64,000 bases of DNA from Nguyenibacter vanlangensis. GTDB lineage: Bacteria > Pseudomonadota > Alphaproteobacteria > Acetobacterales > Acetobacteraceae. Where the stretch lies: positions 1,498,001-1,562,000 of the forward strand of contig NZ_CP152276.1 in the NCBI RefSeq assembly GCF_038719015.1. The letters run 5' to 3'. Positions 1 to 64,000 of the stretch are shown in pieces (within the stretch, counting starts at the first letter, position 1; each line of letters starts with the position of its first letter). Position numbers and translations under genes: made by a program. Below the pieces are notes generated by a model, which ran no database searches, was not told the origin of the DNA, and saw only the letters and a program-made list of their open reading frames with translations.

Positions 1-725
1 TGGTTGTCGGAGCTGCCGGAGATATATGCTCTGAAGTCTGCCGTCGACTGGAGAGTGACGGTTACAAATTAATATTGATCGACCGCGATGAGGTTCGGCT
101 CAACAGGTTGCTCAACACCCTCGACAGTGACCGTGTCACGCCGGTAATCGCTGATGCAGGTGCAACAGAGCCCGCAGACGGAGGCATAGCCGACGCGGTT
201 GACCAACACCGGCCGGAGGTGCTCATAAACGGTGTCGGCGGCGACACCAAAGTATTAAGGATCGAAGACCTTACGGCAAGCTATGTTGCCGAAAAGATAA
301 ATGAAAACCTGATAACGACGTTCAACGTAACCAAGCTCTGCGTGCCCCACATGAAAGCCAAACGTTATGGACGCATCGTCAACTTTGCGTCCGCCGGCGG
401 GCGTACATACAGCCATTTCAATAACGCGGCGTATGTCGCTGCAAAAGCCGCGGTCATCGGGTTTACCAAACAAATAGCATATGAACTCGCTCCCTTCGAT
501 ATTGTTGCGAACGTCGTTGCACACGGGCCGATGCTGACGAGCCGCATTGAATCCGCGTGGGAGCGGCGCCCCGAAGAGCAGAGGAAGGACGTGCTGAATA
601 GAATCCCTCTCCGACGGATGGGCACTCTCGATGAAGCCGTCGGAAGCGTAATGTATTTGGCATCTCCTTCCGCGGGTTTCACAACAGGAAGTGTGATGGA
701 CATCAATGGCGGTCTTTACATGTAA
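1..725 (+). CDS. SDR-family oxidoreductase, 5' end cut off
   Basis: A short-chain dehydrogenase/reductase whose start lies before the window; the frame is open from base 3. The first visible residues include GAAGDIC, matching the nucleotide-binding glycine motif, followed by an acidic residue (IDRDE) after the second strand, which usually favours NAD over NADP. NGVGG stands where NNAG is usual. The active site is present as a serine in NFASAGG and YVAAK. The C-terminus INGGLYM is typical of the family, so only about ten N-terminal residues are missing. It is the first visible gene of a same-strand row that continues with a YCII protein and a GH3 enzyme. Its substrate cannot be read from sequence. 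Codon choice is more A/T-rich than in genes after 8.4 kb. Confidence 0.88.
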   Translation, partial: VVGAAGDICSEVCRRLESDGYKLILIDRDEVRLNRLLNTLDSDRVTPVIADAGATEPADGGIADAVDQHRPEVLINGVGGDTKVLRIEDLTASYVAEKINENLITTFNVTKLCVPHMKAKRYGRIVNFASAGGRTYSHFNNAAYVAAKAAVIGFTKQIAYELAPFDIVANVVAHGPMLTSRIESAWERRPEEQRKDVLNRIPLRRMGTLDEAVGSVMYLASPSAGFTTGSVMDINGGLYM

Positions 726-746
726 ACTGGCCCAAGGAGATAGGTG

Positions 747-1022
747 ATGATTACATTTATTGTAAAATACATATATAACGTTACCAGATCTGCGCGAGAA
801 CAGGTTATGGCGTCGCATCGAGAAAATCTGGAACAACAAGCGCAGTCGGGCGCCTTGATTTGTGCGGCGCGCGTCGAAGGCGAAGAGGCGGGTGTTCTGA
901 TATACAAGGCCGAAGATCGCGAGAAACTGGAAAACATACTACAAAAAGAGCCCTATAAGAAAAATGGATTTATAGAAAAGACCGAGATATCGGTTTTGAA
1001 TCCAACAATAGGGCTCCTCTAA
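747..1022 (+). CDS. YCII-domain small protein
   Basis: A 91-residue protein with the layout of YciI/YCII-domain proteins: a beta strand ITFIVKYIYN, a helix with REQVMASHRENLEQQAQ, a strand ending SGALICAARV, then LIYKAEDREKLENIL and a QKEPYKKNGF segment like the family's 'DPF..aGl' stretch. The family fold resembles muconolactone isomerase, and a few members are dehydrochlorinases or cyclisation helpers; most are unassigned. The start at 747 is chosen because AAGGAG at 734-739 stands seven bases before it, although a GTG at 744 is also in frame. It begins 21 bases after the SDR stop, so co-transcription is likely. A role in the neighbouring pathway is inference. Confidence 0.72.
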   Translation: MITFIVKYIYNVTRSAREQVMASHRENLEQQAQSGALICAARVEGEEAGVLIYKAEDREKLENILQKEPYKKNGFIEKTEISVLNPTIGLL

Positions 1023-1119
1023 CGATCGCAACACCTCAAAAAACGTGAAGACTGGCCATCAGAATATAAAATATTCCAATATCGAATGACGAAGATCCAA
1101 CTCCTGGGAGACCAAAACC

Positions 1120-2826
1120 ATGGCTATCACCGACTGGTCGCTCAATTGGTTCGATCGCAGGTCAAGTTTCATCGAAGAGTGCAACGCTGCGCGCAACGCG
1201 CTTATCGATGATCTAGCCGATGGGGCTGCCACGCAGCAGCGCGTATTGGACGATATATATCGCATTTGCGGCCCATCGCAATCATGGCAACAATCGGGGT
1301 ATAGCGACGCCATCCGGCGTGGCGCAACTTTCCGGGAAATTGTACCAATTCGGACATACGCGGATTTTGAACCGCTCATTGACAGCGAAGTGCACACCAA
1401 GGGTGGCGTTCTGTCGACCAGTCCTGTCCGTCGCTGGTTAAAAACAAGTGGCACGACCGGAAAGCCCAAGCGTATCCCCTATACGGACCACTGGATGACG
1501 GCTTATCGCGTGCCCGCGATGAAGGCGATGTGGGGCACGTTTCTGCTGAATTGTCCGGAACTTCTTGCCCATCCGTATGCGACGTTCGACACCCAGACAG
1601 TCCGCGAAGTCCCCGGCGATCACATCTTTGGCGTGCCTTATCAGGGGATCAGTAACCGCAACCCGCCACTCGGCGCCTCAGATTGGACGCCACCCTGGTA
1701 CGAAGCCCCTTGGTATATCCCCTCTCTCCCCAGCGACCATTTAACCAAAATGTATTACCGGCTACGATGGCTCGTCACGAAAGATGTCCGGTTTTTGACT
1801 GCAATAAACCCAAGCACCATCTTGTCCATACTCGATAGTCTCAAACTGTTCGCATCAGTTCTGGTCAAGGAGATAGCGGACGGATCCGTGGCCGGGATAA
1901 ACATGGTTGCGCCGGATCCGGAAGCGGCTCGGCGGCTGGAGAAAATTCTCGGACGATCCACTTATTCATTGAATGATGTCTGGCCCAACTTGATACATTA
2001 CAGCACATGGGCGTCGGCCGCCGCGAGGCTCTACGATGCGCAAATGCTCCATGCCTTGCCCTGCGCCAAGCGACTTCCCTTCATGAGCTGCGGAACGGAA
2101 GGGGTCGTGACAATACCGCTGGACGGTTCTCAATTGGGTCAACCATTGGCGGTCGACCAAGCCTGGTTCGAGTTCATCCCCGCTGAGGATGAACCGAACG
2201 AGTATTTAAGCGGCAGGAGAAGAACCGACACCCTCTTGTATGACGAACTGGACGTCGGAAAAGAGTACCACGTTATAATGTCTCAGTTGAACGGTTTGAC
2301 GCGACTCTACACCGGAGATATATTTTCTGTCGAAAAAATAGAGGCCGGAGTGCCGCATATTTACTTCACCCGTAGACACGGTGTTTATCATTCATTCACG
2401 GGCGAAAAATTGACCGAGGCTGAAGTCGTTTCTGCAATTGAACGCGGCCTCGCGCAGTTCGGAGCACCTCTCGGATTATTTCTCTGTGGCGCGCGATGGG
2501 GATCTCCGCCAGGTTATTCAATTGCGATCGAGCTGCATCTGCCCCGGAAACTTGATGTTACGGAAATCGCCACGGCGATTGATCTCCATCTGCAGCACAT
2601 CAGCATCGAGTATGCGTCGAAGCGGGAGAGCGGTCGCCTGGACGGCATACAGGTCGCATTGATTCAACATCAGGCGATCGCGAAATACGTCGAATCAAAA
2701 CGGAATCCAGGCAATACCACTCAATACAAATATAAGCCGTTCCATAAGGACACGTCCTTTCTCGATGAACTCGTCCGAGATAACAACATTATCCAGGGGG
2801 AGATGCACGGTGTCAGCGTCACGTAA
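1120..2826 (+). CDS. GH3-family acyl-adenylating amide synthetase
   Basis: A 568-residue member of the GH3 family, the plant auxin/jasmonate-amido synthetase family that activates a carboxylic acid with ATP and joins it to an amine, usually an amino acid. The ATP/phosphate motif SGTTGKPKRIPYT is at about residues 110-122, a second family segment (FMSCGTEGVV) lies near 327, and LYTGDIFSVEKI near 396 corresponds to the YRxGD-type nucleotide motif. The C-terminal domain (TGEKLTEAEV onward) is present, so the protein looks full length. Bacterial homologues are found in specialised-metabolite loci and as scattered genes. Acid and amine substrates are unknown. The next gene starts inside the last 17 bases of this one, which points to coupled translation. 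It is A/T-rich compared with genes beyond 8.4 kb. Confidence 0.85.
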   Translation: MAITDWSLNWFDRRSSFIEECNAARNALIDDLADGAATQQRVLDDIYRICGPSQSWQQSGYSDAIRRGATFREIVPIRTYADFEPLIDSEVHTKGGVLSTSPVRRWLKTSGTTGKPKRIPYTDHWMTAYRVPAMKAMWGTFLLNCPELLAHPYATFDTQTVREVPGDHIFGVPYQGISNRNPPLGASDWTPPWYEAPWYIPSLPSDHLTKMYYRLRWLVTKDVRFLTAINPSTILSILDSLKLFASVLVKEIADGSVAGINMVAPDPEAARRLEKILGRSTYSLNDVWPNLIHYSTWASAAARLYDAQMLHALPCAKRLPFMSCGTEGVVTIPLDGSQLGQPLAVDQAWFEFIPAEDEPNEYLSGRRRTDTLLYDELDVGKEYHVIMSQLNGLTRLYTGDIFSVEKIEAGVPHIYFTRRHGVYHSFTGEKLTEAEVVSAIERGLAQFGAPLGLFLCGARWGSPPGYSIAIELHLPRKLDVTEIATAIDLHLQHISIEYASKRESGRLDGIQVALIQHQAIAKYVESKRNPGNTTQYKYKPFHKDTSFLDELVRDNNIIQGEMHGVSVT

Positions 2827-3676
2827 AATCGAACAACTTCATAGCGACGGTGCGGATTTGGCGTTGCACTCTTGGATGCCGCGTAACCCGCGCGCCGCGG
2901 TCTTCTACCTCCATGGCCTTCAAAGCCACGCTGGATGGTCATGGCAATTTGGGGAGTATCTCGGGCGTCGCGGCGTCGCCTTGTTCGTTTTGGATCGGCG
3001 TGGGAGTGGTCTGAGCGGGGGCGTCCGCGGGGACTATGCATCATTGGACTCCCTGGCCTATGATTATCATGTCGCGTACAACCATATGCTGGCGCTACTT
3101 GAAGATAAGCAAAATGTAACGCTCTTTGGTCACTGCCTCGGAGGATCGCTGCTCGGTGGTCTTCTGGCTAAAGGAGGCGTATTCGCGAATTATCGCTCGT
3201 TTGTTTTTTGCTCCACGTGGCTGGGTCGTCTTCACGCCGTGCTTTCGCCTGAGGAGAGATCAATAATCGCCGGAGAGAGAAGCACCGAGCTTGTAGACGT
3301 AGACTTGAAGGCGCATGACTTTACGGATGTCAAGAAATATCTTGACTTTATTTCCTCCGATCCGCTCTCAATAAAATGCATTACCGCTCGAAGCAGAGCG
3401 TTGTTTCTGGAAATAGAACAGATTTATCTCGAGAGGGGGATAGATTCAGGCGCTGCATCAGCACATTATATTATAAGTTCAACCGATCCCATTGTGAACC
3501 ATCAAGCATCCTTCGAGGTATTTAACGCGATCACTCGAAATGCCGGATTTCTAACAGTTATACCGACAAATAAACACTATATTCCATTCACTGATGCAAG
3601 GGAGGTATTGTTTAAACGAACGGAATCAATTGCGCTAGAGCATCATCCGACCGGATGGGCTCATCCGGTCGGATAA
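2810..3676 (+). CDS. alpha/beta hydrolase with cysteine nucleophile
   Basis: A 288-residue alpha/beta-hydrolase of the S33/monoacylglycerol-lipase-like type. The oxyanion-hole region is YLHGLQSHAGW. The nucleophile elbow reads GHCLGG (Cys109), where most relatives have GHSxGG. Asp226 (SSTDPIVN) and His256 (NKHYIPF) fit the remaining triad positions. A G-x-C-x-G elbow is known in PHA synthases and some acyl-transferring or cyclising relatives, so acyl transfer or thioester chemistry is as likely as hydrolysis. The GTG start at 2810 is chosen because GGGGGAG at 2796-2802 precedes it; a longer in-frame extension to 2765 would lie inside the GH3 gene. It overlaps the GH3 stop, so the two probably act together. 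The stop codon lies next to a long hairpin. Confidence 0.82.
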   Translation: MSASRKIEQLHSDGADLALHSWMPRNPRAAVFYLHGLQSHAGWSWQFGEYLGRRGVALFVLDRRGSGLSGGVRGDYASLDSLAYDYHVAYNHMLALLEDKQNVTLFGHCLGGSLLGGLLAKGGVFANYRSFVFCSTWLGRLHAVLSPEERSIIAGERSTELVDVDLKAHDFTDVKKYLDFISSDPLSIKCITARSRALFLEIEQIYLERGIDSGAASAHYIISSTDPIVNHQASFEVFNAITRNAGFLTVIPTNKHYIPFTDAREVLFKRTESIALEHHPTGWAHPVG

Positions 3677-3684
3677 AGATGCTC
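3638..3684. repeat. long hairpin at the end of the hydrolase gene
   Basis: Bases 3645-3657 and 3662-3674 form a perfect 13-bp stem with a 4-base loop. Outside it, GAGCATC (3638-3644) pairs with GATGCTC (3678-3684) after a three-base bulge. The stem covers the last codons and stop of the hydrolase gene. The layout (GAGCATC flank, inner GC-rich palindrome, complementary flank) resembles mobile palindromic repeats of other alphaproteobacteria more than a plain terminator, because no T-run follows. Confidence 0.7.
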
Positions 3685-3703
3685 GTTAAAACAAAGAGCT
3701 AAG

Positions 3704-3739
3704 AGCCATATCCGTGAACCTGTGAGAATGGATATGGCT
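3704..3739. repeat. second intergenic hairpin
   Basis: AGCCATATCC (3704-3713) pairs perfectly with GGATATGGCT (3730-3739), separated by 16 bases. The pairing nearly continues outward with CTAAG and TTTAG. It is the second of three hairpins between the hydrolase and the enolase-superfamily gene. Confidence 0.6.
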
Positions 3740-3808
3740 TTAGAGCATGTCGGTTGAACACCGGTTCCGTGAAAATACCCTAAGTTATTATTCTGTCGAG
3801 CATCTTCA

Positions 3809-3836
3809 CCCGTTCAAACGACTCCGTTTGAACGGG
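3809..3836. repeat. third intergenic hairpin, perfect 12-bp stem
   Basis: CCCGTTCAAACG (3809-3820) and CGTTTGAACGGG (3825-3836) form a perfect 12-bp stem around a 4-base loop (ACTC). It ends 28 bases before the chosen start of the next gene. A nearby TCGAGCATC (3797-3805) echoes the GAGCATC flank of the first hairpin, which suggests repeated insertion of related elements. It could lower read-through or tune expression of the downstream genes. Confidence 0.65.
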
Positions 3837-3863
3837 ATCTTCTCCAGCCGAGGGGACATCGGG

Positions 3864-4988
3864 ATGAGAACGCGTTTTTTCCACGTAACGCTCCCCTTAA
3901 AGCGGCCGTTTGCTCACATGGCACATAAGCGGACCACATCCGACAGCGTTGTCCTTATGATTGAACACCAAGGCGTTACAGGAATCGGTGAATGTGCGCC
4001 GCGGAAATATGTCACCGGAGAGACGGCCGAGCAGGTGATATGGTCGGTGAACTCCGCTCTTAAGAGTCGCGGCGTCGCGGAGGCACTCGAAGCAAGTCCC
4101 ATCGAGTTTCTTTCCGGAATGCTAAACGGTGACAAGCGCTTTAGTGACATCGCATCGCTGCCCAACAACGCGCGATGCCTGTTGGAAATGGCGCTGCTCG
4201 ATTGGCTCTGCCATGCAAGATCGATCGCATTATGTGACGTCATAGCTGCGTCATTTGAGTCCGGCTTGATGCCGAGCAAGGAAATCACGCGTGTTCTCGA
4301 TGGCCATCGGAATCTGGATGATTTTCTCAGTTCGGACGGTCCGTTTCACTGCATAAAGGTAAAGGCTACGATAAATAGCCAATCGGATATCGAGACCGTT
4401 GAGAAATTGCGTGAAAGCATAGGGCCAAACCGCGATATAATAGTCGATGCCAATATGGGCTGGACAGACGAGAATGCCCGGTCGTCGATGGCCAAACTTG
4501 GACGAGCCGGAGCTACGCTGTTTGAGGAGCCTCTTCCCGCACGACGATACCTGGATTTGGCCGATCTCAGGGCCACAACGAATCAGCCAATTATGCTGGA
4601 CGAGTCCCTGTGCACACTTCAGGACGGAGAGGAGGCAATTGCGCGATCGAGCGTTGACGCCTTCAACATCAGAATTTCCAAGAATGGCGGGATATCGGGC
4701 GCGCTTGGCCTGATACGCCTGGCTCAATCGTCGGGTATCCGTTGGCAACTGGGCGTTCAAGTCGCCGAGGTCGGGCCGCTGGTTGCGGCCGAACGGCATT
4801 TAGCGTGTACGGTCGGGGGCTATTTGACTGTCGAGGCGGGAATTGGTGACGAGATATTTGACGAATTTGTCGTGGATCCTTATCCCACGCCCGATCGAAA
4901 AAATAATACAATAATACTTCCACCAGGCGACGGGCTTGGCGTTCAACTATCTTCAAATATAAATAAGTACAATACAGCACTTACCTGA
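3864..4988 (+). CDS. enolase-superfamily enzyme, muconate cycloisomerase subgroup
   Basis: A 374-residue enolase-superfamily protein. The capping domain (THK... to about residue 130) is followed by a barrel with the acid/base pair KVK (Lys165, Lys167), metal ligands Asp195 (VDANMGW), Glu221/222 (FEEPL) and Asp246 (MLDES), and the opposite lysine Lys273 (ISKNGG). This K-x-K/D-E-D/K pattern is that of the muconate cycloisomerase subgroup, which includes cycloisomerases, o-succinylbenzoate synthase, N-acylamino-acid racemases and dipeptide epimerases. It is not the mandelate-racemase/fuconate-dehydratase pattern. The start at 3864 follows GAGGGG at 3850-3855; the frame stays open back to 3747 through the hairpin block, which is probably not coding. 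Racemisation or epimerisation of an amino-acid conjugate made by the GH3 enzyme would fit, but that is inference. Confidence 0.82.
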   Translation: MRTRFFHVTLPLKRPFAHMAHKRTTSDSVVLMIEHQGVTGIGECAPRKYVTGETAEQVIWSVNSALKSRGVAEALEASPIEFLSGMLNGDKRFSDIASLPNNARCLLEMALLDWLCHARSIALCDVIAASFESGLMPSKEITRVLDGHRNLDDFLSSDGPFHCIKVKATINSQSDIETVEKLRESIGPNRDIIVDANMGWTDENARSSMAKLGRAGATLFEEPLPARRYLDLADLRATTNQPIMLDESLCTLQDGEEAIARSSVDAFNIRISKNGGISGALGLIRLAQSSGIRWQLGVQVAEVGPLVAAERHLACTVGGYLTVEAGIGDEIFDEFVVDPYPTPDRKNNTIILPPGDGLGVQLSSNINKYNTALT

Positions 4989-4999
4989 AGACGTTCGTT

Positions 5000-5911
5000 T
5001 TGTCTGGCGTATTTGATTTGTCATTGGTCGATTGCGATATTGGATCCGAGGTTGCCATGTATACCTTGTCAAGGTGCGATGTGCAGAGCCGTGTGTTGAC
5101 TTTTCTCGGCAACGGGCGAACGAACAGGGCGCTCACTGCTGTGCGCGACGATCCAGCAGATCTCATACAATCTTCCATCGCGGGAAATACGGAGCGGCTC
5201 GCCGTCTCGATTTTGCAAGGGGCATCAGTTGAAAACCGACGTCCAAAGGGATTTTTTCACTGGCGGGCGCCTTTCGAGATGCACGCTCAGAACCGTGTTA
5301 TAGTCGGAGGCTTCGGCAAAACGCACGGATCGCGCCATGCGGACGTCTCTGCTGCCGACGCGCCTGCGTGGTTCTTCAAAGGGACCGACGCTCAGCTGCT
5401 TCTGAATGGCGAGGCAATAAAAGGCGTGGGGCGCGCTGCCCAGATTTGTGAGGAAGCAGAAATTATACTGGTCTACAGTACTGACGGCTCAGGTGTTGCA
5501 CAGTACGTTGGCTTTATGTTTGGAAACGATGTTACTGACATTGTTACTGCCCGCGGCCAGCCCTCCAAGCTTGGACGCGCAAAGCTTTATCCGACGCCCG
5601 TTCACCCCGAATTGTTTCTCGGCCCGCCGCCGGCGCGTGTGACTGGGCGAGTCTCATGTTATCGCGACGGGCAATTGATGGGCGATTTCCACGTTGAAAC
5701 TGGAACGGATGAGCTTGTCTGGCCGGTCGAGGAACTTATTATGGGACTCCTGTCCAATGCACCGATGGCAGTCCCTGGGACTATACACATGATATTCATG
5801 GGGTGTCCCATGAATAGCTACGATAAGGGTATCCCGCTGGCGCCGAAAGATGAAGTCGTGATCGAATTTCCGGATTACGATGTGCGGATAAGTAATACCC
5901 TGGAGGCCTGA
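5000..5911 (+). CDS. FAH-fold protein, AraD1-like
   Basis: A protein of up to 303 residues with the fumarylacetoacetate-hydrolase fold in the AraD1/GguC-like branch. The recognisable run is FFKGTDAQLL, EEAEIILVYSTDG (acidic metal-site segment), YVGFMFGNDVTDI, LGRAKLYPTPVHPELFLG and GTIHMIFMG. Characterised AraD1-type enzymes dehydrate sugar acids; other family members hydrolyse or decarboxylate beta-diketo acids. The frame opens with TTG at 5000; the first ATG is at 5057 and may be the true start, which would give 284 residues. It begins 11 bases after the enolase-superfamily stop, so the two are probably one transcript. An IS3 transposase scrap continues in the same frame directly after the stop. 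Confidence 0.75.
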   Translation: MSGVFDLSLVDCDIGSEVAMYTLSRCDVQSRVLTFLGNGRTNRALTAVRDDPADLIQSSIAGNTERLAVSILQGASVENRRPKGFFHWRAPFEMHAQNRVIVGGFGKTHGSRHADVSAADAPAWFFKGTDAQLLLNGEAIKGVGRAAQICEEAEIILVYSTDGSGVAQYVGFMFGNDVTDIVTARGQPSKLGRAKLYPTPVHPELFLGPPPARVTGRVSCYRDGQLMGDFHVETGTDELVWPVEELIMGLLSNAPMAVPGTIHMIFMGCPMNSYDKGIPLAPKDEVVIEFPDYDVRISNTLEA

Positions 5912-5920
5912 GGGGGGTCG

Positions 5921-5974
5921 GCCCGCTACGGGACGCCGGAGATTTTCAACACGGATCAGGGCAGCGCTTTCCAG
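5921..5974 (+). pseudogene. IS3-family transposase (OrfB) fragment
   Basis: Translation gives ARYGTPEIFNTDQGSAF, which matches the conserved segment of IS3-family OrfB integrase cores around the second catalytic Asp (GTPE..NTDQGSQF). Only about 18 codons are preserved; the frame stops matching after 5974 and no inverted repeats or other parts of the element are visible. It is a remnant and marks past IS activity between the enzyme genes and the LysR/MFS pair. The rest of 5975-6140 holds nothing else I can identify. Confidence 0.75.
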
Positions 5975-6140
5975 ACCGGGGCAACCTCTGGGTCAGGCGG
6001 ACTCCAAGCGGTTTGTGATGCCAATTCATGCAAAGCATCATGAGGAGCAGCGTTCTTCTCCAGGTGCAAAGTTTTTCTCGCACGTCGACTCGGGTGGGCT
6101 TAAGCTCATCGTCCTGAAACGTTGGGGCGCGTCACCGTAA

Positions 6141-7046
6141 ATGCATCCAAAAGATTTATCTTTGCTGGCATGTCTCGACGTTCTCTTATCCGAGGGCAGC
6201 GTAGCGGGAGCAGCTTCGCGCATGAATCTCAGTACTCCGGCCATGAGTCGAATCCTCGGGAGGATTCGGTCATTGACGGGAGATCCGATTCTTGTGCGGG
6301 CCGGCCGGGGCATGGTGCCCACACCGCGAGCAGAAGAAATTCGTGAGCAGGTGAGCGCGCTCGTGGAGAACGCTCGGCAGATATTGCAAGGCTCGAGCCA
6401 ATTCTCACCGCACCTTCTCAAACGTACCTTCACGCTTCGCGCAACCGACGGCTTTGTATCATCATTCGGCTCTCATTTGATTGATTCTCTCTCCAAATGT
6501 GCTCCTCACGTCAGCCTGCGATTTGCCCCACAAGGGGACGAAGACGTTGCGGGGCTTCGAGAGGGGGCGGTCGATCTTGACATCGCCTCAATAAATATCA
6601 GTGGTCCCGAAATTATAACCCAGTCCCTGTTTTCCGACCGCTTTGTCGGGGTGGTAAAGAAATCCCACCCTCTTGCCTCCGGTAAGGTTACGGTCGAACG
6701 ATTCTGTAATTATCCTCAGATCTCCGCGTCACGCCGAGGACGCAAGCAGGGGCCGTTGGACTTGGCGCTCCAAAATCTCGGCCAGTCGCGCACGGTCGCC
6801 GTGGTCGTATCCGGCTTCGCGGATGCGGTGTTCCTAGCCGACCAGGCGGGCCTGGTCGCGGTTGTGCCGGAGTTGCTTACACGTAGCGTGCGTCATGGAT
6901 TGATGACGTTCCAGTTGCCGGTGGAGACGCCACCGGTCACGGTGTCCCTGGCGTGGCATCCCAAATTTCAATTTGATCCTGCGCATAGCTGGTTGAGGAC
7001 GATTGTAAAGGCAATCTGCTCTTCTGACGACTCGTCAGATACATAG
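6141..7046 (+). CDS. LysR-family transcriptional regulator
   Basis: A 301-residue LysR regulator. The N-terminal winged helix reads DLSLLACLDVLLSEGSVAGAASRMNLSTPAMSR, close to the NodD/PcpR/LeuO type that begins with 'DLNLL..f..ll.e.sVt.AA..l..sqpAmS'. The effector domain follows from about residue 90. The start at ATG 6141 leaves the usual five residues before the helix. It lies on the same strand as the MFS gene that follows after 107 bases and may control that transporter, the upstream enzyme row, or both. Base composition is between that of the enzyme row and the rest of the window. Confidence 0.88.
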   Translation: MHPKDLSLLACLDVLLSEGSVAGAASRMNLSTPAMSRILGRIRSLTGDPILVRAGRGMVPTPRAEEIREQVSALVENARQILQGSSQFSPHLLKRTFTLRATDGFVSSFGSHLIDSLSKCAPHVSLRFAPQGDEDVAGLREGAVDLDIASINISGPEIITQSLFSDRFVGVVKKSHPLASGKVTVERFCNYPQISASRRGRKQGPLDLALQNLGQSRTVAVVVSGFADAVFLADQAGLVAVVPELLTRSVRHGLMTFQLPVETPPVTVSLAWHPKFQFDPAHSWLRTIVKAICSSDDSSDT

Positions 7047-7116
7047 TTGCATTTCTATCAACGATACATTTCAATAATTGCAGTTTCCGCATCTTCTTTG
7101 TCTGGCGCATTATCAT

Positions 7117-7140
7117 CCAGCTTCAGGGCCAGCTTCAGGG
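7117..7140 (+). repeat. tandem 12-base repeat before the MFS gene
   Basis: CCAGCTTCAGGG occurs twice in direct succession (7117-7128 and 7129-7140), ending just before the AAGGAAGAAGGG ribosome-binding region of the MFS gene. It is probably a simple slippage duplication in the leader. Confidence 0.55.
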
Positions 7141-7153
7141 AAGGAAGAAGGGA

Positions 7154-8359
7154 ATGGCGACGGCATCCACAGACATGGCTCCTGCCTCCGGTCGAGAAGC
7201 AACGCGGCGGCTGCTTCCCTTCACGGTTCTGGTTGCTCTCGGTTACCTCACGGTGGGATTGCCCCTAGCTGTTGTACCGATCTATGTACATAGTACGCTC
7301 GGTTTTGGTCCGGTTGCCGTTGGCTGGGTGATAGCAATGCAATCGATCGGGACATTACTGACTCGCCACTTTGCAGGTGTTGTTTCCGACACGCGTGGTT
7401 CGAAACTCGCGGTTATTTCTGGCGCTGCCACATGTTCTTTTGCAGCAGTGTTATATAGTCTGAGCACTCCGTCGCTTTTCGGGAGGACTGGTGGGCTAGG
7501 GATCCTATTATTAGCCCGGTTGATTCTCGGGTTGGGAGAAAGTCTGCTGATCACCGGCGCGTTAGCGTGGTGCATAGGGGCAGTAGGAAGCCGGTATACC
7601 GGGCGCGCGATGGTTTGGGTCGGCATAGCAATGTTCGGTTCGATCGGAGCCGGCGCGCCTGCCGGCGTTGGCCTGCTCCGAGCAGGCGGTTTTACCTTTC
7701 TTGCTCTGGTAGCGGCTCTCCTCCCGATTCTTGCGTGCCTGATTGCGGCAAGGAAGCCCGGCATACCTCCGCATCACGGCCGGCGCATGGGGTTCCTGAA
7801 GGTTGTCGGCCTCATCTGGCCATTTGGGGTAAGCTTGGCGCTGAGTACTTTCGGGTTCGGCACGCTCTTCGCGTTTCTTGGCCTCTATTACGCGTCTCAC
7901 AATTGGTCCGGTGCGTCATGGGCGCTCTCGGGATTTGGCCTCGCATATACGGTCACCCGCCTCATATTCGGTGGCCTGCCCGACCAAATGGGGGGAATCA
8001 GGGTCGCGTCGGTCACTATCCCTCTCCAGGCACTCGGATTGATTATTTTAGCGGCGGCACCGGTGGCTGAAGTGGCTTTGATCGGCGCTGCCATTCTTGG
8101 AGGGGGGTACTCACTGACATTTCCGGCGCTGGGAGTCGAAGCCGTCAAACATGTTCCTCCGCAAAGCCGGGGCGCTGCAATGGGTGCTTACGTGGCGTTC
8201 GTCGATATAGGGCTTGGTCTAACTGGGCCAATTTCCGGAGCCATTGTCAGCCATGCGGGTTATCCAGCGGTCTTTGTGGCGGGAGCCCTCGCATCGGGGG
8301 GGGCGTTCGTCGCAATGATGTTGACGAGTAACCTCTTCGTTAGGCCCACCGTAGATTAA
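7154..8359 (+). CDS. MFS transporter
   Basis: A 401-residue major-facilitator protein with about twelve hydrophobic segments, starting with FTVLVALGYLTVGLPLAVVPIYVH. The loop between segments 2 and 3 reads FAGVVSDTRGSK, a form of the family's G-x-x-x-D-x-x-G-x-K/R signature, and the second half repeats it as FGGLPDQMGG. It resembles the YhhS/arabinose-efflux-like group of small-molecule exporters. A purine-rich ribosome-binding region (AAGGAAGAAGGG) precedes ATG 7154. Being the last gene of the A/T-richer segment and next to a LysR regulator, it may export the product, or import the substrate, of the upstream enzymes; the substrate is not known. Confidence 0.86.
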   Translation: MATASTDMAPASGREATRRLLPFTVLVALGYLTVGLPLAVVPIYVHSTLGFGPVAVGWVIAMQSIGTLLTRHFAGVVSDTRGSKLAVISGAATCSFAAVLYSLSTPSLFGRTGGLGILLLARLILGLGESLLITGALAWCIGAVGSRYTGRAMVWVGIAMFGSIGAGAPAGVGLLRAGGFTFLALVAALLPILACLIAARKPGIPPHHGRRMGFLKVVGLIWPFGVSLALSTFGFGTLFAFLGLYYASHNWSGASWALSGFGLAYTVTRLIFGGLPDQMGGIRVASVTIPLQALGLIILAAAPVAEVALIGAAILGGGYSLTFPALGVEAVKHVPPQSRGAAMGAYVAFVDIGLGLTGPISGAIVSHAGYPAVFVAGALASGGAFVAMMLTSNLFVRPTVD

Positions 8360-8430
8360 GTGTTTGGTTTCAGGAACTCGACGTCATACCCCTCCCTGCG
8401 GCGTACGAAACGTGGCATGATCCTGAAGGG

Positions 8431-9414
8431 TCAGCAGGCGTCCTGCGACACGGTACCGAAGACCCCGCGCAGCAGGGCCTCCATTTCAGAAACATCATGT
8501 TCGATGAAATCCGGAAGCGTGTCGCGCGCCACCTGCCTGAGATGGTCGGAGAATTCGGCGAGAACCGGCGCCAGCGGCGTGGCGCTGCGTGAAATGACGC
8601 CGAAATGGAACGGAATCTGCACGTCGAGCGGCCGCACGACGGCACCGTCCACCGGCATCCCATAGGCCGTGACCGGATCGATCACCGCCACCCCCATGCC
8701 GGCGCGCGCGGCGGCGACGGCCGAGACGCTGGCATTGGTGTCGATGGCGGAAAACGGCGCGAGGCCGGCCGCGCGAAAGGCCGCATCGATCCGGGGACGC
8801 AGCCGGAAGGGGTTGGACGTGGCGATCAGCGGCCGGTCCTGCAGGTCGATCAGACGGATCCGCCGGCGCCGGACAAGGGGATCGGAATCGGACACCACCG
8901 CCACGCAGGCGGCCGAACCGATCCAGTGCACGTCCACCCCCGGATGGTCGAGCGGCAGCGACGAGATGCCGAGTTCCGCCGTGCCGGAACTGACGGCCTG
9001 GACGACGTTTTCGGCCATCATCGTGTGGAGGAAAATCTTGCGCGGCAGGCGGCCCGGCGGGATGCGCGCCAGGGCGAAGGGCGCGATGGTCGCGGTGAAG
9101 GCCGGGATCGACGCGATTTCGAACGGCTGCGGCTCGCCGAAGGCGATGGCGTCCGCGCGCTCCTTGATATGGCGCAGGCCGCTGAGGAAACGCTCGACCT
9201 CGGAATGGAACAGCACGCCCTGGCTGGTGGGCGCGATGCGCGGGCCGTTCCGCGACAGCAGCAGGAAACCGATATTGTTTTCCAGGTCCTGAATCGCGCG
9301 GCTGATCGTCGGCTGTGACCGGTTGAGGACGCGCGCCGCGGCGGTGATGCTGCCGGCCGACATCACGGCCGCGAACGCATCGAGTTGCTTGATGTCGAGA
9401 TCATCCAAATTCAT
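8431..9414 (-). CDS. LysR-family transcriptional regulator
   Basis: A 327-residue LysR regulator with the helix-turn-helix DIKQLDAFAAVMSAGSITAAARVLNRSQPTISRAI at the N-terminus and a periplasmic-binding-like effector domain after it. I chose ATG 9414 (MNLDDLDIKQ) because it gives the normal spacing to the helix; the frame remains open for 56 more codons upstream, probably by chance in high-GC DNA. It is divergent from the two AhpD-like genes starting at 9573, the standard arrangement for a LysR activator and its target. It is followed tail to tail by the MFS gene. Confidence 0.88.
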   Translation of the reverse strand: MNLDDLDIKQLDAFAAVMSAGSITAAARVLNRSQPTISRAIQDLENNIGFLLLSRNGPRIAPTSQGVLFHSEVERFLSGLRHIKERADAIAFGEPQPFEIASIPAFTATIAPFALARIPPGRLPRKIFLHTMMAENVVQAVSSGTAELGISSLPLDHPGVDVHWIGSAACVAVVSDSDPLVRRRRIRLIDLQDRPLIATSNPFRLRPRIDAAFRAAGLAPFSAIDTNASVSAVAAARAGMGVAVIDPVTAYGMPVDGAVVRPLDVQIPFHFGVISRSATPLAPVLAEFSDHLRQVARDTLPDFIEHDVSEMEALLRGVFGTVSQDAC

Positions 9415-9572
9415 GCCGCGCATCATAGCAGGCCCGATGATCGTTGCAAACCAAGGATGCCTTACAAGGATCATAATGGCATTGTCATTCGTAATACGCA
9501 TGATAAGGTGACCACGGCCGGGACGCCGGAACCGGAACCGGCCAAGTCGCGTCATTTCGATATGAGAAAAAA

Positions 9573-10076
9573 ATGCCACCACCGGACGTCAATTTCTTCG
9601 CGGATAGAATTGCCGCGACCCGATCGCCGGCGATGCGGGACATGTTCGCCGCACGGGCGGAGATCATGCGCCTGTGCGACGCCAGCGCCGCCGCGGTCCT
9701 GACCCCCATGGAACCCGGCCGGATCGGCCGGGCCGAACGTTTTGCCCTGGCATCGCGGATCTCGCGCTGGAATGGTGATGCCGCCCTGGCGGACCGCTAC
9801 GGCCGGCAGTTGGACGAGATGTCGGCCTGTCCGGTGCTGCGGGCGCTGGGCCTGGGCGAGATGCCCGAACTGGACGCGCGGCAGGCCGCGATCGTGACCT
9901 ATGTCGATATCGTCACCAAGGATCCCGTCAAGGCGGGGCGGGCCGAAATTGCGGCGATGCAGTCGGCCGGCCTGACGGATGCGGACGTGGTCCGGCTGGC
10001 CGAACTGGTGGCGTTCGTCAATTTCCAGGCCCGCGTCATGGCCGGCCTGACGCTGATCGAGGAGCATGCGGCATGA
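9573..10076 (+). CDS. CMD/AhpD-like protein, Avi_7170-type
   Basis: A 167-residue all-helical protein of the carboxymuconolactone-decarboxylase/AhpD superfamily, resembling the 'CMD domain protein, Avi_7170' family. It lacks the CxxC pair of catalytic AhpD proteins; only isolated cysteines (LCDAS, MSACPV) are present. Members of this family are encoded directly before an AhpD-domain partner, as here: the ATG of the next gene overlaps this stop (ATGA). The pair could form one heteromeric peroxidase-type enzyme in which only the partner carries the redox cysteines. That is inference from gene order. Confidence 0.7.
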   Translation: MPPPDVNFFADRIAATRSPAMRDMFAARAEIMRLCDASAAAVLTPMEPGRIGRAERFALASRISRWNGDAALADRYGRQLDEMSACPVLRALGLGEMPELDARQAAIVTYVDIVTKDPVKAGRAEIAAMQSAGLTDADVVRLAELVAFVNFQARVMAGLTLIEEHAA

Positions 10077-60131: not shown

Positions 60132-61586
60132 TCAGGCGGCGCGTCTGGACTTGAGGGCAAAACGAAGCACCAGAGCGAGGACGCCCAGGATCACGAGAAC
60201 GACGACAGCCAGGACCGCGATGACCGAAGGGTCGGCAAGCTTCGCAATAGGGACCTGCTTGCCGCCCGCGCGGACCGTGGCGACGGTCTCGGCGGTCACC
60301 GAAGCCTGCGCGTTGCCGAAATGCGCCAGGACGTAATTGGCGATCGCGGCGACCTGCTGATCGGACAGCGACTGCACCAGGGAATGTCCGTCGAAACCGG
60401 GCATCAGGATTTCACGGCCACCGACCGTCCGGTCGACGCCGAAAAGGATGCTCGCGACCAGGTCGTTCGGGTTCAACTGACCCGTGGTCGTGTTGCCGAC
60501 CAGCGAGGGATAATATCCGTCGGCACTGCCCCTGCCATCCGACTGGTGGCAGCTTGCGCAGACCGATTCATACAGGACATTGCCGGCCGCCATGGTCGTG
60601 ATGGTGCTGTCGCCGCGCCGCGCGTTGGCTGCGGCGTAATCGAACGGCGCCGCCTTGCCGCCATGCGCGAAATTCGCGACGCTCTGGCCCGGCTCGCCGA
60701 TCGCCGGCACCGATTTCACATAGACCGCGATCGCCGCCAGGTCATCCGGCGTCAGATACTGGAAACTATGCTCGACGGCTTCGGCCATCGGTCCCGCGGC
60801 ACGGGCATGGGCGGTTTTGCCCGTCTGCAGATAGGTCTGAAGCGCCTGGTTGGACCAGCCGCCGACCCCGGCCACGGCATCGCTGGTGATGTTGGGCGCC
60901 CGCCACGATCCGACATCTCCTCCCGCGAGATAGGCCGATGTTTTCGGTGCCAGAAGGATATTCCTCGGCGTATGGCATTCTCCGCAATGCGCGAGGCCAT
61001 CGACGAGATATTTGCCGCGATTCCACGCGGCGCTCTGCGCGGGATCGGCAACATAGGGCTTGCCGACGACGCCGCTGAGCAGCTTCCAGCCCCAAAGGGA
61101 CGCCCGGATCGAAAACGGGAACGGAAGCCGGGTTTCCGGCGCGGGCCGATCCACCGGCTTGACCTCGTGCATGAGGTAATCGTACAGCGCCGCAACGTCG
61201 TCGTCCGTCAGCAGGCTATACGACCCGTAAGGCATCGCCGGATAAAGCTGGGCGCCATCCGCCCGCACACCATGCCGAATGGCGCGGGAGAATTGCTCGA
61301 GCGTATAATTGCCGATGCCGTATGTCCTGGACGGCGTGATATTCGTCGAATAGATCGCCCCCATCGGCGATGCGATGGCATATCCGCCCGCCAGGAACGC
61401 GCCGTCACGGCCATTGGTGTGGCAGGCCGCGCAATCGGCAGCAACCGCGAGATAATGGCCGCGGCTCATCGGTTCTCCCTGCGATGCTTGCGCATGCGAC
61501 GGCGCCGCATACCCCGCCAGGACCAACGGAGCCGCCAGCCAGAAACGCCGAAGCAGCGTTCCGGACGTCGAGACAGAATTCTTCAA
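60132..61586 (-). CDS. triheme cytochrome c subunit of the dehydrogenase
   Basis: A 484-residue cytochrome c with a signal peptide (FWLAAPLVLAGYAAPSHAQA), three heme sites (CAACH at 52-56, CGECH at 201-205, CASCH at 343-347) and a C-terminal membrane anchor (VIAVLAVVVLVILGVLALVL). It passes electrons from the flavoprotein to ubiquinone in the inner membrane. The same arrangement is known for FdhC, SldC and the gluconate dehydrogenase cytochromes. It lies between the small- and large-subunit genes, 29 bases before the large subunit. Confidence 0.92.
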   Translation of the reverse strand: MKNSVSTSGTLLRRFWLAAPLVLAGYAAPSHAQASQGEPMSRGHYLAVAADCAACHTNGRDGAFLAGGYAIASPMGAIYSTNITPSRTYGIGNYTLEQFSRAIRHGVRADGAQLYPAMPYGSYSLLTDDDVAALYDYLMHEVKPVDRPAPETRLPFPFSIRASLWGWKLLSGVVGKPYVADPAQSAAWNRGKYLVDGLAHCGECHTPRNILLAPKTSAYLAGGDVGSWRAPNITSDAVAGVGGWSNQALQTYLQTGKTAHARAAGPMAEAVEHSFQYLTPDDLAAIAVYVKSVPAIGEPGQSVANFAHGGKAAPFDYAAANARRGDSTITTMAAGNVLYESVCASCHQSDGRGSADGYYPSLVGNTTTGQLNPNDLVASILFGVDRTVGGREILMPGFDGHSLVQSLSDQQVAAIANYVLAHFGNAQASVTAETVATVRAGGKQVPIAKLADPSVIAVLAVVVLVILGVLALVLRFALKSRRAA

Positions 61587-61601
61587 TGTTTTCGCTCCCG
61601 T

Positions 61602-62162
61602 TCAGAATTGCGGCATTTGCGCGACGGGAGCAGGCTCGGCGACCCAGTAATTCGGGCCGTTATGCGCATAGGTCGGAATCACCACGACATCGCGCGCCGG
61701 CTGATACATCAGGGCATTTTCGAACGCATAGACCTTGGCATCGGTGCCGTCTTCTATCACGCCGGAATACCAGCCGCGAATGATCTGCAGCAGCGTGTCA
61801 TGCAGCGGATTGCCGCGCAGCGATTCTTCCAGCGCCTCGACGTCCGCCGGCTTGCTGTCAGCAACCGTCTTGATCAATGCGGCAAGCTGATCCGGAAAAG
61901 CCGTGCTCTGGGCACGCAGGGCCGCCAGAAGGGACCGCCCGACCAATGGGTCGAGATTATCGTGTCCGGTTGCGAAACGGGAAAAGGCGACGAATTCCGC
62001 CGTGTCGTCCCCCGCCGCGCCGCCGATCCCCTGGGCCATGGCCGACCGGAAGGACGGTGCGAACAAGCCGAGAGCCGACGCGCCGGACACCATCAGCATA
62101 TTGCGGCGGGACACCATACGGCCGCGCGCGCGCGGCGTCCCCCGCATTTCAGTATTTTCCAT
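61602..62162 (-). CDS. dehydrogenase small subunit with Tat signal
   Basis: A 186-residue small subunit of the gluconate-2-dehydrogenase subunit-3 type. The N-terminus MVSRRNMLMVSGASALGLF is a twin-arginine signal that should carry the folded large subunit across the membrane. The C-terminal half (HDTLLQIIRGWYSGVIED, AKVYAFENALMYQP, VIPTYAHNGPNYWV) is very close to what I recall of Gluconobacter fructose dehydrogenase FdhS and the sorbitol dehydrogenase small subunit. First gene of the small-cytochrome-large operon. Confidence 0.9.
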   Translation of the reverse strand: MENTEMRGTPRARGRMVSRRNMLMVSGASALGLFAPSFRSAMAQGIGGAAGDDTAEFVAFSRFATGHDNLDPLVGRSLLAALRAQSTAFPDQLAALIKTVADSKPADVEALEESLRGNPLHDTLLQIIRGWYSGVIEDGTDAKVYAFENALMYQPARDVVVIPTYAHNGPNYWVAEPAPVAQMPQF

Positions 62163-62926
62163 ATCTTTTCCGATTTATCGAAAGCGTGAATTTAAAAATT
62201 CAAGAAATACGCAAAATCTTCTTCCCAGCGTCAGCGGACTTTACCAGAAGGGTGGACAATCCATAATCGCGGAAATTTGTGAGCGCAATGCGCCGGGACC
62301 GCGGACGGGAGGGCGAACAGGTAACTTTTTTTTGACCACGAAAAGGAGAGCCGTTCATTTGGAAAAACAGCCCGTCAATTACATGATATCAGAAGAATAA
62401 TTCCATAATTCACAGTTAATTATAAATATTTGAATGTTATTTCAAGTAAATACCGATCAAGACCGGCATATTGCCGGGATTTTACGAAATATTAACATAA
62501 TTTTTATATAATATCAATTTTATTATATGATTTCTTAGGCAGGAATAAATAATTATTTATGTTATTTTATTTTCCCAGAAGCATTCACGGCACATATTAA
62601 ACAGATATTTAATTTAGTAACCTAAGTATAAATTATTATTTAATCAGACGATACTTCCACGATTTTACGTTCTGTAGATTTTACACCGTATATTTTTTTA
62701 AACGGACCTTTCCGAAAGAACAATTTTCCGTCTCGTGACCGGCGGCTCTCCTTGGACAACACGGACATCCATGGAGCGCAATAACGGAATCGAACAGTCT
62801 ATGCTAAGCCGGGTCCCAGTGATCCATGCCCCGATACGAAAGAAGACTTGATGCCCCCATTCCCCTCATGAATCGAATGCCTCTTTTTCACAGATAAAAA
62901 ATTTCGCTGTTTCCCATAGGACTCCA
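62163..62926. other. A/T-rich non-coding region
   Basis: This 764-base gap separates the dehydrogenase operon (leftward) from the porin gene (rightward). From about 62385 to 62740 it is strikingly A/T-rich, with many TTAAT, ATAAAT and TATATAAT stretches, in contrast to the G/C-rich genes on both sides. I see no credible protein gene and no RNA gene I can name. It can hold both promoters, may be bent, and is a likely target for nucleoid proteins of the H-NS/Ros type; this last part is inference. Confidence 0.7.
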
Positions 62927-64000
62927 ATGGTTGGACGCAAGAAATGTCACCATTTACGTCACTTCATTGAAAGTGCCGCATGGTTCCTTGTCGCTTTTGT
63001 TCTGACGTCTTTCTGTCATTCGCACGGGGCGCATGCCCAGGCCCATGCCCAGACCCAGGCCGTCCCGCATGAGCTGATCGACCAGGGCGCGCCGCCGCCG
63101 GAATATCAGGGGATCGCCTATCCCATGGATAATGTCGGGGAATTCAATGTCGGCCCCATCATCCCGACGCTGGCGGGCGCGCCGCATCTGTTCGGCGACT
63201 GGCATGGCATCCAGCCCTGGCTGGTCAAGCGCGGCATTTTCCTGAATTTCTCTTTGAACGAGGAATATATGGGCAACATCACCGGCGGCAAGACCCGGGC
63301 GAACGTCCTGGCCGGCCAGGTCGCCGGAGAGCTGGATATCGACTGGCAACGCCTTGCCGGGGTGAACGGCTTCTGGACCCATATGCTCGTCGTCAATGGA
63401 CACGGCCGGAGCTTCAGCCAGGCCGTCGGCGATTCCGTTACCAACCCCGAACAGATCTACGGCGCGCGCGGCAACGTGGTCGCCCATCTCGTCGAACTCT
63501 ATGCGGACAAGACCTTTTTCAACAAACACGTCATCCTGTCCCTGGGCGACATCCCGACCGGCAGCTTCTTCTCCTTCGATTATACGGCCTGTTTCTTCAT
63601 GAACGTCTCGGTCTGCAGCAATTTCGCACCCGGGAAATACAATCCCGGAGGCCGCGACTGGCCCTCGGGGAATCTGGGCGGCGTTCTCAGGATCCGTCCG
63701 ACCGATCAGACCTATATCATGGGCGGCGTCTTCGCCGTCAGCCCGCACGCCTATAATGGCGGCATTTCGGGTTGGGCCATGGCGCAAAGCGGCCTTGGCA
63801 AGGTGACGTCGCAGTTCGAAATCGGATGGATGCCCGAATTCGGCCGGGACAAGCTGCGCGGCAACTACAAGATCGGCTATTGGTACGACAATTCGCGCTA
63901 TCCGAACCTGTACGAGGACATCAACGGCAATTCCTTCCAGGCCACGGGTCAGTCGCGCCGCTATGAAGCCGGCATGAACGTCGCCTGGCTGATGTTCGAC
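62927..64000 (+). CDS. OprB-type carbohydrate porin, 3' end beyond the window
   Basis: The first 358 codons of a carbohydrate-selective porin. After a signal peptide (WFLVAFVLTSFCHSHGAHAQ) the chain has LFGDWHGIQPWLVKRGIFLNFSLNEEYMGN, ANVLAGQVAGELDIDWQRL, LVELYADKTFFNKHVILSLGDIPTGSFF and GGVFAVSPHAYNGG, typical of OprB barrels in acetic acid bacteria. It would admit sugars or polyols to the periplasm, where the adjacent dehydrogenase acts. ATG 62927 is the first good start in this frame. The barrel end is outside the window. Confidence 0.87.
   Translation, partial: MVGRKKCHHLRHFIESAAWFLVAFVLTSFCHSHGAHAQAHAQTQAVPHELIDQGAPPPEYQGIAYPMDNVGEFNVGPIIPTLAGAPHLFGDWHGIQPWLVKRGIFLNFSLNEEYMGNITGGKTRANVLAGQVAGELDIDWQRLAGVNGFWTHMLVVNGHGRSFSQAVGDSVTNPEQIYGARGNVVAHLVELYADKTFFNKHVILSLGDIPTGSFFSFDYTACFFMNVSVCSNFAPGKYNPGGRDWPSGNLGGVLRIRPTDQTYIMGGVFAVSPHAYNGGISGWAMAQSGLGKVTSQFEIGWMPEFGRDKLRGNYKIGYWYDNSRYPNLYEDINGNSFQATGQSRRYEAGMNVAWLMFD

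Follow-up and report, generated by a model that had tools for sequence, protein, structure and literature searches.

A GH3-type amide synthetase and an acyltransferase of the alpha/beta-hydrolase superfamily are encoded in one operon in the OlsH/OlsI ornithine-lipid pathway of Singulisphaera acidiphila, as described in the available parts of PMC12493201, and this is the closest characterised bacterial pair of the kind that was found. The same parts of that paper present bacterial GH3 enzymes as widespread and little characterised. Here, a comparable pairing was analysed at the start of a stretch of 64,000 nucleotides from Nguyenibacter vanlangensis (the window; G000:C1:1498001-1562000 in a single-contig genome of 4.75 Mb). 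Six genes, all open and all on the + strand, occupy positions 1-5911 and encode a short-chain dehydrogenase/reductase (SDR), a YCII protein, a GH3 enzyme, an alpha/beta hydrolase (ABH), an enolase-superfamily enzyme of the muconate-lactonizing subgroup (MLE) and an enzyme with the fumarylacetoacetate hydrolase (FAH) fold. Open reading frames (ORFs), Pfam matches, fold comparison and alignments bear out this gene set in one direction, including the Cys nucleophile of the alpha/beta enzyme, as proposed in an earlier reading of the sequence (the original prediction). Like OlsH/OlsI, the window pairs GH3 with an alpha/beta hydrolase in one operon. Unlike that pathway, so far as the available parts of its description extend, it also has MLE, the FAH-fold enzyme, SDR, YCII and a Cys nucleophile, and there is no methyltransferase among the six genes. 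With the plant GH3 acyl-acid amido synthetases of auxin and jasmonate conjugation, the enzyme shares all three GH3 domains of Pfam and ATP-binding motifs that can be aligned; it differs from them in its low similarity (95-130 bits with the profile) and its bacterial operon context. We give about an even chance to the reading that the operon was acquired horizontally and is a small version of biosynthetic clusters that share a GH3-ABH-MLE cassette and form a family as yet without a name; its pathway would make and remodel an acid-amine amide.

No described GH3-ABH-MLE cluster, and no published product of loci that carry the cassette, was found among the open-access papers listed, in line with the original prediction that no cluster with this gene set was known; a description elsewhere is possible. 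A GH3 gene, RubP3, stands beside other genes in the rubiginone cluster table of PMC8487521. 'Cluster 17' of P. donghuensis P482 was considered and rejected, as the main texts of PMC4880745 and PMC8154892 contain 'GH3' 0 times and other genes are named in the passages available from them. The locus represents known enzyme families in an apparently undescribed combination that is widely distributed and co-inherited.

Conservation of the GH3-ABH-MLE cassette

Genomes were scanned with the GH3 profile alone, and 80 of 94 loci were kept, 14 being dropped before the counts; 52 of them (L005-L056) are higher-scoring and the other 28 lower-scoring. GH3, ABH and MLE occurred together in 49 of the 52 best loci (48 of 51 without L005, which is of the same species), with gene order and strand kept in 47 of the 49, the exceptions being L044 and L047. 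Among the weaker loci, 26 lacked ABH and MLE alike at E < 0.01, and two, L062 and L079, had both. Because the 52 are the higher-scoring loci, the comparison contrasts clades and cannot serve as a randomised control. The weaker 28 include at least four contigs under 7 kb, on which a neighbouring gene might escape notice, and the GH3 gene of L062 is cut off. L022 has ABH but no MLE match, and L051 has neither; the stretch of L053 ends 70 bases past its GH3 match, and its missing ABH and MLE are uninformative. Distance matrices were correlated at 0.966 for GH3-ABH, 0.938 for ABH-MLE and 0.923 for GH3-MLE (n = 46 in each case; permutations reached 0.28-0.35 at most), while correlations with the FAH-fold enzyme reached 0.81-0.89 (n = 36-39; permutation maxima 0.42-0.45). 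As judged by linkage and distances, GH3-ABH-MLE is a conserved, co-inherited cassette. The original prediction had taken these genes for a true cluster, and the searches agree: the set is recurrent, not assembled by chance, and the cassette is collinear in most of the best loci, where scattered homologues would have spoken against it. A metagenomic GH3 (65% identity over 72%) and MLE (56% over 78%) share the longest-contig value 8662, hinting at a linked relative of the window's lineage.

The surroundings of the cassette were compared by clustering ORFs in 54 loci (L006-L056, L062, L079 and L002) of 84; the ORFs were chosen automatically, which leaves family counts rough, and one or two members of each main family were scanned by Pfam and NCBIfam, the remaining families being named by eye. 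The families included a thiamine diphosphate (ThDP) enzyme in 22 loci, a pyridoxal phosphate (PLP) enzyme in 17, an ATP-grasp enzyme in 14, a polyketide synthase with ketosynthase, acyltransferase, dehydratase and acyl carrier protein domains in 8, and a luciferase-like monooxygenase in 7. Two main layouts are suggested by the gene orders. In one (for example L011, Streptomyces), the order SDR-YCII-PLP enzyme-ATP-grasp-luciferase-like is followed by GH3-ABH-MLE-FAH; its PLP enzyme matched PdxR best and enduracididine MppQ next, and its ATP-grasp enzyme matched PRK07206 best (above cut-off) and the dapdiamide synthase DdaF next (below cut-off). The window operon resembles this layout minus the PLP, ATP-grasp and luciferase-like genes. 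In the other, the ThDP enzyme and FAH come after GH3-ABH-MLE, often with aldo-keto-reductase-like, CHMI-type isomerase and major facilitator superfamily (MFS) genes; this layout occurs in Pseudomonas, Burkholderia, Brenneria, Xenorhabdus, Zooshikella and Streptomyces. Seven of the eight polyketide synthase loci also carry the ThDP family, and an AfsA-like gene (named by eye) occurs in eight loci across both layouts, some with SDR-YCII-PLP behind the cassette. The related loci look like natural-product clusters because PLP, ATP-grasp, luciferase-like, ThDP or polyketide synthase genes are present. A search of the window's own genome, which covered the ThDP and PLP enzymes and not the ATP-grasp and luciferase-like ones, returned weak paralogues only (best 39.8 and 74.9 bits, respectively). 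At L016:4525-8586 (- strand), near the GH3 cassette, the polyketide synthase has the four domains named above and no ketoreductase match.

Active sites of the encoded enzymes

The N, M and C Pfam domains of GH3 scored 112, 47.4 and 39.7 bits, each exceeding its cut-off. Its motifs TSGTTGKPK (109-117), SCGTE (323-327) and GLTRLYTGD (392-400), together with K430, align with solved plant amide synthetase structures, and the three nucleotide-binding motifs are kept across 18 sequences and those structures, with T109, S110, G111, T113, K117, C324, G325, E327, G392, R395, G399, D400 and K430 as invariant or near-invariant columns. These motifs support the membership in the amide synthetase family that had been proposed, with amide formation itself as the predicted activity. 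The sole NCBIfam match was OlsH (NF052613), at 39.4 bits against a cut-off of 620. In a quick GH3 tree (LG+G4, 53 rows, L050 and L062 excluded by length), the window lies on a long branch with uncertain neighbours.

At E <= 0.001, ABH matched Hydrolase_4, Abhydrolase_6 and Abhydrolase_1 only in Pfam, with no dienelactone-hydrolase match, and its seven sequence matches in the PDB are all monoacylglycerol (monoglyceride) lipases. The predicted nucleophile, C124, belongs to a triad with D241 and H271; the two latter are kept in 50 of 50 homologues, in which the nucleophile column holds Cys in 39, Ser in 10 and Gly in 1. Rows outside 250-345 amino acids (L014, L018 and L038) were excluded from this alignment; in two of these loci the ABH frame is stop-free for 1044 and 2076 codons, at L014:11688-14819 and L018:3028-9255, respectively. 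Ser replaces Cys at ten loci (L043, L044, L046-L048, L050, L052, L054, L056 and L062), eight of which have GH3 in the tree, and none of the eight falls inside the 42-row group containing the window. L079, the most distant GH3 in the tree, nevertheless has a Cys ABH, which speaks against a clean Cys/Ser split.

The K-x-K motif, three acidic metal ligands and opposite Lys that define the muconate-lactonizing subgroup are all found in MLE, where K165, K167, D195, E221, D246 and K273 are invariant in a 30-row alignment; in a set of 51 sequences, the catalytic Lys, Asp and Glu residues are kept in 50 or 51, with K204, K206 and D234 (longer numbering) each in 50. The GH3-linked enzymes differ from the known subgroup in sharing additional invariant residues, R47, Y49, R270 and E324. 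Among the nearest structures, there is little distance between muconate cycloisomerases, N-acylamino acid racemases and dipeptide epimerases. No NCBIfam cut-off was reached by MLE, the equivalogs DgcA and L-Ala-D/L-Glu epimerase scoring 93.5 of 400 and 82 of 500 bits, and its MenC_N matches, with E 0.069 for the window enzyme and 0.0003 for that of L044, fall short of the curated cut-off.

The FAH-fold enzyme had no Pfam match at E <= 0.001 and scored 86.1 bits with GguC/AraD1 (NF040903), below the cut-off of 340. Its model matches solved FAH enzymes, with 2-keto-3-deoxy-D-arabinonate dehydratase at the top (E 9.6e-15, Foldseek probability 1.00), and identity is 13-19% across the 50 structure matches listed. 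E152, E154 and D177, which we take to be metal ligands, are invariant in 26 sequences; both fold and acidic positions are like those of the FAH superfamily (AraD1/GguC, 2-keto-3-deoxy-D-arabinonate dehydratase). The enzyme is present in 37 of the 52 best loci at 70 bits or more; three loci without it that were scanned (L048, L050 and L051) carry a canonical PF01557 FAH protein instead. SDR occurs in 20 of the 52, and YCII in 18, each time adjoining that SDR; the operon SDR is 43-57% identical to the SDRs of 19 other loci (L006-L056).

Proposed pathway and rival explanations

In the proposed pathway, GH3 would adenylate a carboxylic acid with ATP and couple it to an amine, for which an amino acid is the likeliest candidate. 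MLE would take off and return a proton beside a carboxylate of either the conjugate or its acid, thereby epimerising or cyclising it, while the Cys hydrolase may move or close an acyl group, as opposed to simple hydrolysis. The FAH-fold enzyme, SDR and YCII would prepare or trim the acid by 2-oxo-acid or beta-dicarbonyl chemistry, reduction and isomerisation. The GH3 motifs, the recurrent cluster and the Cys nucleophile agree with parts of the original prediction of an amide-conjugate pathway, which had also been given an exporter of its own; that part is not supported. The LysR-MFS pair downstream is probably a separate regulator-transporter pair and not part of the operon, because it occurs at 60-64% identity in two congeners without the GH3 operon; the MFS genes at loci elsewhere belong to other families (named by eye). 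In a wider reading, held tentatively and at clearly less than even probability, GH3-ABH-MLE would be the core of an undescribed class of amide natural products made independently of non-ribosomal peptide synthetases, a class that gene transfer would have carried through both Actinomycetota and Pseudomonadota, the larger clusters decorating a shared moiety and that of Nguyenibacter being minimal; GH3 would forge the amide, MLE remodel it by enolate chemistry, and the Cys ABH close or transfer it. The cassette predicts which further enzymes act on a GH3 product and flags cryptic Streptomyces and Pseudomonas clusters for product discovery, and the six-gene version is small enough for reconstitution.

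Several points weigh against an acquired amide-forming cluster. The evidence consists of sequence, linkage, conservation and selection, from which the amide chemistry is predicted. Organism relatedness must lie behind part of the distance correlations, and L022, without an MLE match, and L051, without ABH and MLE, depart from the pattern. The GH3 enzyme falls outside the OlsH family (39 bits against 620), and cycloisomerases, racemases and epimerases cannot be told apart by the solved structures nearest to MLE. Furthermore, larger relatives have PLP, ATP-grasp, luciferase-like and ThDP genes that the operon lacks, and the pathway may be incomplete or require host enzymes. This last point, together with the insertion sequence (IS) remnant at the operon edge and the repeat inside it (Table 1), fits the reading that the operon is what truncation has left of a larger transferred cluster and no longer makes a defined product. 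Such decay is nevertheless improbable, and third among the four alternatives: the six genes are open, their active sites are conserved, the ratio of nonsynonymous to synonymous substitution (dN/dS) between strains is 0.09-0.24, and the metagenomic GH3 and MLE with their common value of 8662 hint at a linked relative.

An amino-lipid or N-acyl-amino-acid synthesis like that of OlsH/OlsI, with GH3 N-acylating from a fatty acid, ABH O-acylating and the other enzymes accessory, is unlikely, although it ranks highest of the four. It draws on OlsH being the only NCBIfam match of GH3 and on OlsH/OlsI being the closest characterised bacterial pair found; the score, however, is far below the cut-off, and MLE, the FAH-fold enzyme and the polyketide synthase, ATP-grasp and PLP genes of the relatives play no role in the OlsH/OlsI pathway that the available parts of PMC12493201 describe. 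Second in rank, and again unlikely, is a catabolic operon for an aromatic compound or lactone, served by the cycloisomerase, YCII, Cys hydrolase and FAH-fold enzyme under LysR with uptake by MFS, in which GH3 would activate the substrate. The MLE, YCII (MIase, 32 bits), LysR/MFS and FAH classes are typical of ring-cleavage pathways, but none of the six genes encodes a ring-cleavage oxygenase, ABH is confined to the three Pfam families named above, the relatives adjoin polyketide synthase, ATP-grasp and PLP genes, and the LysR-MFS pair is separable. Least probable of all is a menaquinone-like logic, with MLE resembling an o-succinylbenzoate-synthase-like dehydratase and ABH resembling MenH, GH3 standing in for MenE, the ThDP enzyme of larger clusters for MenD, and the ring being amidated afterwards. 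The ThDP family in 22 of the 54 clustered loci and the weak MenC_N matches of MLE are consistent with it; against this, in L028 and L033 the ThDP enzymes matched PRK08327 and benzoylformate decarboxylase best, with MenD outside their best 25 families, the PDB matches of ABH are all monoacylglycerol lipases, and the window operon has no ThDP gene.

Operon limits, origin and neighbouring genes

Table 1. Features of the operon and its flanks, in window coordinates unless stated otherwise (nt, nucleotides; aa, amino acids)
Feature	Position	Strand	Size and basis
SDR oxidoreductase	1..725, start at G000:C1:1497979 (L002:12979), 22 nt outside the window	+	248 aa; Pfam SDR 122 bits
YCII / muconolactone-isomerase-like small protein	744..1022	+	92 aa; Pfam YCII 43 bits
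GH3-family acyl-acid amido synthetase	1120..2826	+	568 aa; Pfam and motifs
Alpha/beta hydrolase (ABH)	2765..3676	+	303 aa; Hydrolase_4 77 bits; triad C124-D241-H271
Dispersed two-part genomic repeat between ABH and MLE	3677..3866	+	genome DNA matches
Muconate-lactonizing-subgroup enolase-superfamily enzyme (MLE)	3864..4988	+	374 aa; MR_MLE_C 133 bits; conserved residues
FAH-fold enzyme, AraD1/GguC-like	5000..5911	+	303 aa, TTG start; model fold and invariant acids
52-bp remnant of a presumed IS3-type transposase gene, downstream edge of the operon	5914..5965	+	DNA identity to genome copies
LysR regulator, paired with MFS, probably outside the operon	6141..7046	+	Pfam; congener pairs
MFS transporter, paired with LysR, probably outside the operon	7154..8359	+	NCBIfam; congener pairs

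The same-strand order given originally stands, while two of the gene limits were revised. Recovery of the upstream DNA (L002) placed the SDR start before the first base of the window, with an Lrp-like regulator and a saccharopine-dehydrogenase-like gene (named by eye) as its 5' neighbours. The MLE start was moved from 3747 to ATG 3864, preceded by GAGGGG, because a dispersed repeat lies upstream; residues 2-37 of the ORF that begins at 3747, roughly its first 37 codons, match 12 other genome places. As DNA, the repeat has matches at no fewer than 41 genome places including its own, each to one or both parts, a lower bound since 40 of 66 candidates were scored. It comprises two units (query ~1-67 and 65-172, about 67 + 108 bp), 79-93% identical outside its own place, one of which is open in frame and mimics a protein N-terminus. 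The repeat fills the 187-nt gap between ABH and MLE; GH3 and ABH overlap by 62 nt, and spacings are 18 nt for SDR-YCII, 97 nt for YCII-GH3 and 11 nt for MLE-FAH. A scan of L002:12400-19300 gave 9 promoters and 5 terminators against shuffle means of 5.7 and 7.5, and an Rfam search of window 1-10000 gave no match at the gathering score.

The A/T-richer character noted originally was recovered, G+C being 0.51-0.54 over 1-6000 against 0.60-0.69 in 2-kb windows within 8001-62000. The operon GH3 is absent from all 12 congeners and has one match, at 30%, among 59 other relatives; with at most three candidates scored per genome, 4 of 385 genomes of the class matched, the own genome at 858 bits and three others at 100-141 bits. 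The MLE lineage at E <= 1e-70 was found in 1 of 249 genomes of the family, the own genome, and in none of the 248 others (at most seven candidates scored per genome), and the protein database contains a relative from another acetic acid bacterium, a Komagataeibacter rhaeticus protein that is 43% identical over 82%. Six congeners have the left-flank gene pair, at 72-87% identity, but not the operon. In 72,556 plasmid records, GH3 was matched at 24-34% identity in 5 and MLE in none at E <= 1e-30; GH3 had no match in PADLOC. At the downstream edge, positions 5914-5965 are 92% identical to four other genome places, three of which were read and all carry a transposase-like frame, presumably of IS3 type judging from its motif. 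Horizontal acquisition is the best reading of the low G+C, the missing GH3 in congeners and this remnant at the border.

All six operon genes are under purifying selection. In strain LMG 31431 of the same species (L005, 18,636 bp), GH3 is 99% identical, and dN/dS between the two strains is 0.12 for SDR, 0.10 for YCII, 0.09 for GH3, 0.10 for ABH, 0.19 for MLE and 0.24 for FAH, values based on 2-10 nonsynonymous and 6-26 synonymous differences per gene. A further Nguyenibacter strain, of 5.33 Mb, is the subject of PMC10752598. The second strain is ~66 bp longer between FAH and LysR (L005:13763-13829), ~15 bp past the IS remnant, and longer open copies of the remnant occur elsewhere in the genome. 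A second A/T-richer stretch (G+C 0.52-0.53) lies at the opposite end of the window, at 61001-64000. A few kb upstream of the operon, a levansucrase-like gene (by eye; L002:7880-9817, - strand) adjoins a Hint-domain-like gene.

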